Origin: Escarpia spicata
Lineage: Eukaryota; Annelida; Polychaeta; Sabellida; Siboglinidae
Length of the DNA stretch: 64,000 nucleotides
Direction: 5' to 3'
Assembly: GCA_963995525.1 (NCBI GenBank)
Contig: OZ023212.1
Coordinates: 8,766,504 to 8,830,503, forward strand
Part shown: positions 23,601-28,271 of the stretch, one piece after another
Layout: each line of letters starts with the position of its first letter
Numbering within the stretch: the first letter of the stretch is position 1
Translations under genes and position numbers: made by a program
Notes under the pieces: generated by a model
What the model saw: the letters and a program-made list of their open reading frames with translations, nothing else
Database searches by the model: none
Told to the model about the DNA's origin: nothing

Positions 23601-26600
23601 AATTTTGCTTAGCTGGGCTGGATCTTTCCCAGAACAAAATATATTTGTATCATCCGCAAAAAGAATGAATTTTAGTATATCTGAACAATTACAAATATCA
23701 TTTATGTATAGTATAAATAATTTTGGACCCAGAATGGAGCCTTGTGGTACTCCACATAACACCTGTAATAAATCTGAATTGCAGTCATCTATGCTGACAT
23801 ACTGTAGTCTGTTATACAAGTAACTTTTCAGCCACTCGCTGGCCATCCCTCTGATACCACGTAAGAGACAGTAACACTGGGAAAGAACTAGACACACACA
23901 CATGTGCATGTCGTGTACAAGTTTACAGAGCAGACTACTTGTGCACTCTATAAACATGTTTCAATAACAAATTGCTGTAATCAACTTGTCTTGCATATCT
24001 GTGCCATGGGAATGTTGCATTGATCTAATTACAATGTTTTCCAGTGGCTGAAATTGAGCTCCGATGACGTAAAGGAGCAGATCTACAAGTTGGCGAAGAA
24101 GGGTCTTACCCCGTCCCAAATTGGTAGGTTTTCGTGGGCTTGTCTGACTGCTCTTTGGTAGTTTCCTGATTTTTTGTGGTACTACAGTATTTCAGTATGC
24201 ACTCACATATTGGTGTTTAGGTATTTAATCAATATTGGATAGAAGTAATATAAATTTGTCTACTCCACACTACAAATTAGATTGTTGGCCTCAGCTTTTA
24301 TAGATTCTGGAGGTATCATTATAAAGTATGGCCAAGTTGGCCATGGACTAATTTTGAAGGCATGGCTTTGCAATGAGTGGCCAAATTCAATGCTCCACGT
24401 CCAAGCATAGAAACATTTTTCTACTAAAATACCAAAATGTAGACAAACCCCACATTTTTGTTAGCTACATATGGCTGCATTATTTTAAAACAGTTGTACA
24501 CTATTTATTGATACTGGTTGCCTGTTACAGGTGTGATTTTGCGTGACTCTCACGGTGTCGCCCAGGTCCGCTTTGTCACCGGAAACAAGATCCTGCGAAT
24601 CCTGAAGAAGAAGGGACTTGCTCCCTCCATCCCTGAGGACCTCTACCATCTGATCAAGAAGGCCGTCGCCATCCGCAAACATCTCGAGAGGAACAGGAAG
24701 GTGAGGAGGCCGTGTTCTGTGTATGTCGGCTGTGAGGACATTGTACATTAGCTGGTAGCATCGTTTGCACACTGTAGATTGAGTGACCTGGACTGTTATT
24801 GCATATAGTTTTGTTTCTTCTCGGAATAATGTTTATGGAAAATAATAAAAGCAGTAAATGCAACCAACCATAACATTTCCTTCGACACGACAAGGAAAAC
24901 ATAATTTATTTGCGACTAAGAAAACAAGCAAAATAACGTGCTAAGTGTCATTGATTGTGTGATATGATGACAAAGTTCAATCCATTCTCTGAGTTTTGTG
25001 CTGGTCACCAGATAGCAGCACCTCTCGGTGTAGTGTGACCTCTGGCCTCCTGTTGTCCTAGTCAGGGTTTTCTTGAGTGGTCATTCAGTGGTCAGTGTGT
25101 CACCTGCTGGATGGCGGTCAGTGCAGGGAGACTCTGTCTCTTGAGCCCAAGACGAAGAACTTGACTGATCACACGCAATTGACCAGATAGAATGGTAGCT
25201 TATGTAGTGGGCAATAGCAGTTCAAAAGACCTTTCAGAATAATATTTGTGTGTCCGGATACCCTATTAAACGTAGACCCTAGCAAGGAAATTACATAATT
25301 TGCAACTGTGTCAATCCAAACAAGAACGTTCCCACCCAATATTTAGCTGTCAAAGTACCATGGATCTGTACGTATCTTATTGTAACAGTCACAAGCAAAA
25401 TATTTGCCTGTAAGAAACTCAATTAAAATGCCAACCTATATTAAAATTCCTCAAGGGAAATAAACAAGAGAAGAGAATGTCTGCCTACACTAAAATTGAG
25501 AGGAAGTAATATGAAGCACAAATACTATTCTGAATGGCCTAATTCCTAGCCTTATGTTGGACCAACACGTCGAAACTATCAAGTATTATAAGACCAAGGG
25601 TGAACTACCAACTGGCTGGACATCGATACAACTAGTTATGCTGTTATGGAATGCAACTGTAAATATATTTTGTGATTAAAATTATATTTGACATACTAAT
25701 TAAGTCACAGGATATTTGTGACAATAATTTTGATTTGAAGGGTTTCAGGGCAAATGCGAAAAATGCTATTTATGCCTTTTCTGAAATTTCGTCCAAACCA
25801 GGACTAAATGTTTTACTATCTAATTTATACAAAAACGCAATAAATCCCCATGAAACAACTTGCACAAAAAAGCGTTTGTTTTAAAAACGTGATAAAGCGC
25901 CATCCGTCTTTTTTTTATAAAAACAGGAAGGTGAGGAAGCCGTGTTCTGTGTATGTCGGCTGTGAGGACATTGTACATTAGCTGGTAGCATCGTTTGCAC
26001 ACTGTAGATTGAGTGACCTGGACTTTTATTGCATATAGTTTTGTTTCTTCTCGGAATAATGTTTATGGAAAATAATAAAAGCAGTAAATGCAACCAACCA
26101 TAACATTTCCTTCGACACGACAAGGAAAACATAATTTATTTGCGACTAAGAAAACAAGCAAAATAACGTGCTAAGTGTCATTGATTGTGTGATATGATGA
26201 CAAAGTTCAATCCATTCTCTGAGTTTTGTGCTGGTCACCAGATAGCAGCACCTCTCGGTGTAGTGTGACCTCTGGCCTCCTGTTGTCCTAGTCAGGGTTT
26301 TCTTGAGTGGTCATTCAGTGGTCAGTGTGTCACCTGCTGGACGGCGGTCAGTGCAGGGAGACTCGTGTCTCTTGAGCCCAAGACGAAGAACTTGACTGAT
26401 CACACGCAATTGACCAGATAGAATGGTAGCTTATGTAGTGGGCAATAGCAGTTCAAAAGACCTTTCAGAATAATATTTGTGTGTCCGGATACCCTATTAA
26501 ACGTAGACCCTAGCAAGGAAATTACATAATTTGCAACTGTGTCAATCCAAACAAGAACGTTCCCACCCAATATTTAGCTGTCAAAGTACCATGGATCTGT

Positions 26601-28271: not shown

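Follow-up and report, generated by a model that had tools for sequence, protein, structure and literature searches.

The window analysed here is a stretch of 64,000 nucleotides from the Escarpia spicata genome (assembly GCA_963995525.1, contig OZ023212.1, positions 8,766,504 to 8,830,503). Among the best 120 matches listed for the mitochondrial COX1 of this genome, the closest one with a name is a record of Siboglinidae, a family of annelid tubeworms, at 86% identity; a record without a name reaches 94%, and the named records that follow are annelids at about 78%. This makes the host an annelid, probably in or near Siboglinidae. It contains the gene for ribosomal protein S13 (RPS13) on its plus strand. 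Judged from translation and splice sites, RPS13 reads intact: its exons, the first two of which were delimited by homology, yield a 151-residue protein with 91% identity to the RPS13 of Owenia. Translation and splice sites also set exon 4 at 24531–24700 and exon 5 at 27411–27511, and translation alone sets the coding part of exon 6, up to the stop codon, at 28238–28271. The introns that separate them, intron 4 (24701–27410, +) and intron 5 (27512–28237, +), host three copies of a small RNA candidate. Copy 1 (24957–25174, 218 nt) and copy 2 (26187–26405, 219 nt) are both in intron 4, and copy 3 (27647–27865, 219 nt) is in intron 5. The preliminary description of this DNA had placed three box C/D units of about 219 nt in two RPS13 introns at these positions, and all three are present there, on the plus strand.

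Outside RPS13, the window holds pieces of transposons on the minus strand, with matches to a reverse transcriptase (RVT_1), a DDE_1 transposase and an endonuclease of the reverse-transcriptase type, at 22830–23957, 43710–44852 and 54197–55057. A frame adjoining one of these pieces (44599–45318, −) matched no Pfam family. Another stretch, 57622–60465 (−), carries a 947-residue open frame composed of a short protein repeat, and a second long frame is open in the same stretch. This region is probably a satellite-like tandem repeat and not a gene.

The three intronic units share the anatomy of box C/D snoRNAs. All copies have the ends GTGTGAT and ATCACAC, a box C of the form RTGATGA and a box D, CTGA, which confirms these parts of the preliminary description. 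Box C lies at 24964–24970 in copy 1 and 26194–26200 in copy 2, reading ATGATGA in both, and at 27654–27660 in copy 3, where it reads GTGATGA. Box D is found at 25165–25168, 26396–26399 and 27856–27859 of copies 1, 2 and 3. An additional CTGA, absent from the earlier account, sits at element position 33 of every copy and represents box D′ (24989–24992, 26219–26222 and 27679–27682). Upstream of it lies the D′ guide AATCCATTC (24979–24987, 26209–26217 and 27669–27677), complementary to 28S GAATGGATT. Copy 3 has two further CTGA motifs, at element positions 79 and 86, which we ascribe to chance.

Box C′ is less clearly defined. The block CCAAGACGA, common to the copies and the SNORD17 consensus, contains the motif AAGACGA at 25149–25155 in copy 1, 26380–26386 in copy 2 and 27840–27846 in copy 3, as located by alignment to the Rfam family RF00567. 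This motif is probably a degenerate box C′, of which the AGACGA part looks worn. All three copies have the same guide, D′, putative C′ and D, and box C varies solely at its first base, A or G. Each copy therefore combines a terminal stem, a box C matching RUGAUGA, a box D CUGA and an internal D′/C′ pair, with the C′ degenerate and putatively assigned.

A search of the whole 1.06-Gb assembly (1097 contigs) at the DNA level matched the element three times, every time in RPS13. Within the window, a sequence model built from the three copies likewise matches these three alone. The preliminary description had considered that the sequence might be scattered through the genome as a transposon outside its host gene. 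With three genome-wide matches confined to RPS13, the element is therefore no transposon, and a transposable element with many dispersed copies is ruled out. Nor is a chance origin reasonable for a unit that occurs three times in 1.06 Gb, always within one gene.

Copies 1 and 2 had been explained by a 1230-bp duplication, and the comparison bears this out. The tandem duplication of ~1230 bp occupies 24692–27151 (+), and its two units (24692–25921 and 25922–27151) differ by 10 mismatches and 4 indels overall; within the element, copy 1 and copy 2 differ by one substitution and one single-base indel. Since both units start with AACAGGAAGGTGAGG, the duplication also took in the final 9 nt of exon 4 together with the 5′ splice site of that exon (24692–24706 and 25922–25936), and a second potential 5′ splice site is therefore present at 25931, inside intron 4.

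Comparison of copies 2 and 3 shows differences at 10 of 219 positions (95.4% identity within the element), while the flanks decay. Copy 3 does reside in another intron, as previously described, but its similarity reaches somewhat beyond the element: it extends 3 nt past the 5′ end, and on the 3′ side it fades over ~40 nt, with 7, 8, 4 and 6 matches to copy 2 in successive tens of nucleotides. RNA-mediated retroposition of copy 3 is not favoured, because this weak 3′ similarity extends ~40 nt and no A-tail is seen there. The best explanation is that copies 1 and 2 derive from a recent tandem duplication and that copy 3 is older. Copy 3 appears to be maintained by selection.

Rfam at gathering scores returned no RNA match anywhere in the window. 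When the region 23900–28400 was searched in E-value mode, the best match of all three copies was SNORD17 (RF00567), aligned over the full model (positions 1–238 of 238). The scores were 24.4, 23.4 and 23.4 bits for copies 1, 2 and 3 (E = 0.0059, 0.011 and 0.011). None of them reaches the SNORD17 gathering score of 45 bits; the copies are therefore named SNORD17-like and regarded as probable homologues, not as members by Rfam's rule. Across the 1.06-Gb genome, with E up to 10 and 27 of 24,430 first-look candidates scored, the SNORD17 model returned three places, exactly the three copies (E = 0.34–0.62); of 14 control genomes, 2 also give matches in this search, all of them under the cut-off.

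The likeness to SNORD17 is concentrated at the 5′ end and box C, at the D′ guide and D′, at CCAAGACGA shortly upstream of box D, and at the 3′ end. The blocks common to the copies and SNORD17 are GUGA-AUGAUGA, AUCCAUUC-CUGAGU, CCAAGA-GA and CU-AUCAC. Between D′ and CCAAGACGA lies an insert whose sequence hardly resembles SNORD17. A pattern made of box C, the D′ guide and D′ also has matches in prokaryotes (50 stretches) and in viral contigs (5), which are taken as chance background.

Human RPS13 introns encode U14 (PMC5831926). An identity of the present elements with U14/SNORD14 (RF00016) is ruled out: the RPS13 region has no U14 match, and U14 is found elsewhere in the genome. With 120 of 15,343 candidates scored, ten U14 matches over the Rfam cut-off form one cluster within 5 kb of contig C14 (5655439–5660119), and four further matches genome-wide are far under the cut-off. 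Part of the cluster is arranged in near-identical repeats of ~987 bp. The cluster is on the strand of a gene with RPL7A-like exon translations; one of three stretches scanned matches Pfam Ribosomal_L7Ae and the other two had no match. The cluster apparently lies in introns of this RPL7A-like gene. The broad call of a large intronic box C/D snoRNA unlike U14, made in the preliminary description, was right.

The D′ guide AATCCATTC forms nine consecutive Watson–Crick pairs, at guide positions 2–10, with GAATGGATT in 28S-derived sequence of the same genome, and the D′+5 rule selects the U of GAAUGG in that sequence. This is the geometry of a box C/D guide, which forms at least about nine pairs ahead of D or D′ and has its target at the fifth nucleotide. 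When the guide was shuffled, 45 of 20,000 versions reached at least nine pairs anywhere in the 28S piece in D+5 geometry, and 20 of 200,000 placed exactly this site at D′+5 with a run of at least nine. The D-side guide (AAGACGAAGAACTTGA, upstream of box D) makes at most four pairs within the 28S piece.

The same nucleotide is the published target of vertebrate SNORD17. In chicken, HBI-43 (SNORD17) is assigned to 28S U3307 through a 12-nt antisense element at D′ (PMC2653536). Six sites of the chicken table placed on the annelid 28S piece (A3274, U3307, A3319, C3330, A3356 and C3358) fit 1 of 25 registers, and a five-site version of the test fits 1 of 27 registers, the same one. In this independently fixed register U3307, the HBI-43 site, is the nucleotide chosen by the annelid D′ guide. 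The human counterpart is listed with SNX5 as host and 28S U3797 as target (PMC5025248), a position described as both methylated and pseudouridylated (PMC3542256). The annelid D′ guide thus addresses the U that corresponds to chicken U3307 and human U3797, this target having been read in 28S pieces and not in an intact 28S gene.

An exact pattern for the 28S sequence around the target occurs 32 times in the genome. In the 13 occurrences that were read, the target is inside a 28S piece of ~107–109 nt that starts with TAGCC and is flanked at either end by unrelated joins to other sequence, with no whole 28S gene. We take the TAGCC start of the piece to be the R2 insertion site. In these 13 places the piece comes after several different 3′ ends. 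One array on contig C11 (60473163–60608189) accounts for 25 of the 32 pieces, with spacings of ~3.5 kb and ~5.1 kb, and pieces are also located on contigs C306, C314, C404 and C769. This arrangement suggests R2-like elements in tandem, each of which would carry a scrap of 28S. Of the stretches with the piece that were given to Rfam, one had a partial 28S among seven, and six others had none at gathering scores. A pattern for the 5′ portion of 28S had no match in the genome, and no intact rRNA gene was found; an intact 28S is therefore apparently absent from the assembly, or differs from the pattern.

Copy 3 is predicted to fold with the terminal stem closed and, beyond D′, a long basal stem that leads to two inner hairpins; one more hairpin precedes CCAAGACGA, and this layout equals the Rfam structure line. 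This fold is better than those of all 200 shuffled sequences (z = −3.18). Copy 1 is predicted to fold with the same layout (z = −1.73, 16 of 200 shuffles at least as good). For copy 2 (z = −1.48, 16 of 200 shuffles at least as good), the minimum-energy fold has a local hairpin in place of the basal stem. Copies 1 and 2 thus do little better than shuffled sequence, and copy 2 is the least clear of the three. For copies 1 and 3, and for the consensus as well, the prediction accordingly includes a long branched insert between D′ and C′, with copy 2 alone folding otherwise.

Placing the changes between copies 1 and 2 and copy 3 on the copy 3 structure, five pairs have a one-sided change that leaves them paired, one pair is missing in two copies and none changes on both sides. 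Three of the five one-sided changes are basal-stem pairs that are wobble pairs in copies 1 and 2 and Watson–Crick pairs in copy 3. The RNAalifold consensus likewise has five pairs with a one-sided change, and two that are broken. With only three copies, all nearly identical, covariation is uninformative and gives the fold weak support.

Compared to SNORD17 of vertebrates (HBI-43; RF00567; GGgCD50 in chicken), the annelid elements share the box layout, the AUCCAUUC guide block beside D′, the long branched insert between D′ and C′ (predicted here) and CCAAGACGA, as well as the intronic location and the same 28S nucleotide as predicted target. Chicken HBI-43 is also long (269 nt) and intronic with a 5′ (D′) antisense element, and its two isoforms come from introns 4 and 8 of a single gene, DKC1 (PMC2653536). 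The annelid elements are, however, shorter: they measure 218–219 nt, compared with 238 positions in the model, 269 nt for the chicken RNA and 250 and 257 nt in a rhesus table. Their insert sequence is hardly alike and their scores fall under the Rfam cut-off. The host also differs, being RPS13 in an annelid as opposed to SNX5 in human and DKC1 in chicken. Among the open-licence titles listed, none concerned SNORD17 in annelids or in RPS13, which is no proof of absence. Passage searches gave neither SNORD17 nor 3797 in a Drosophila preprint (PMC13228274), and were likewise empty for PMC3349704.

We interpret each copy as a divergent SNORD17-like box C/D snoRNA, probably the ortholog of vertebrate SNORD17 (HBI-43), which would be released from the RPS13 introns, direct methylation of a 28S U by its D′ guide and carry a branched insert. 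We put the probability of this reading at roughly 0.88. On this best reading the RNA is of a known kind, here in a new phylum and a new host gene, and represents no new class. Intronic C/D snoRNAs are trimmed from excised introns, with core proteins on the C/D stem protecting them. For the annelid copies, which we infer to be expressed and processed, a snoRNP would assemble on the terminal stem and boxes C and D, and exonucleolytic trimming of the RPS13 introns would run up to this snoRNP. The D′ guide would pair with 28S GAAUGGAUU, and fibrillarin is predicted to place a 2′-O-methyl on the U in GAAUGG, which corresponds to chicken U3307 and human U3797. Between D′ and C′, the long insert would fold as a branched hairpin domain, as in the SNORD17 model.

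The main rival explanation is convergence: a box C/D snoRNA unrelated to SNORD17 would have come to target this 28S nucleotide and, on its own, acquired a long insert between D′ and C′. Such convergence would fit the low bit score and the dissimilar insert sequence, and the boxes and guide are dictated by function. However, CCAAGACGA lies outside the guide, and it matches SNORD17, as do the insert's location and predicted branching, so that we consider convergence improbable. The preliminary description had also allowed for a scaRNA or a new class of RNA, which would act on snRNAs or have a non-guide role only. Few features of a C/D snoRNA are as unusual as the size and the long insert seen here, and the D-side guide has no target in the 28S piece. 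Yet no scaRNA family is among the Rfam matches at E up to 10 over 23900–28400, and the D′ guide agrees with the rRNA site published for the best-matching family. Given the full-length match to the known SNORD17, albeit below the cut-off, and a guide for the same 28S nucleotide, the scaRNA and new-class options are unsupported and carry very little probability.

A different possibility, compatible with a SNORD17-like identity, concerns the individual copies: one or more could be dying, unprocessed duplicates beside one working gene, perhaps copy 3. Copies 1 and 2 are recent, copy 1 is without one base in the 3′ hairpin, and the basal stems of both are weaker than that of copy 3. Against decay, the guide, D′, putative C′ and D have stayed identical in the three copies, with box C differing at its first base alone (A or G). 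We regard such decay of one or more copies as rather unlikely.

If the elements are indeed SNORD17-like snoRNAs, a large C/D snoRNA that the literature examined shows only in vertebrates would be extended to a protostome. A comparative survey traced only 11 snoRNAs confidently to the bilaterian ancestor (PMC5006418). It is conceivable, although we hold this tentatively and do not favour it, that SNORD17 including its large branched insert dates from the bilaterian ancestor, while the RNA moved between the unrelated hosts SNX5, DKC1 and RPS13. An ancient insert kept across such host changes could therefore have a conserved role beyond one methylation, for example in 60S assembly.

The distribution of U14 also bears on host genes. 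U14 resides in RPS13 in human, in HSPA8 in chicken (PMC2653536) and apparently in an RPL7A-like gene here; its hosts have therefore been exchanged. With RPS13 of this annelid holding a SNORD17-like RNA, and U14, the occupant of human RPS13, in an RPL7A-like gene, this suggests host exchange among ribosomal-protein genes. The standard Rfam model at its default cut-off misses a SNORD17-like copy of this kind, and such a distant sequence would be useful for asking which parts of the SNORD17 insert are conserved.
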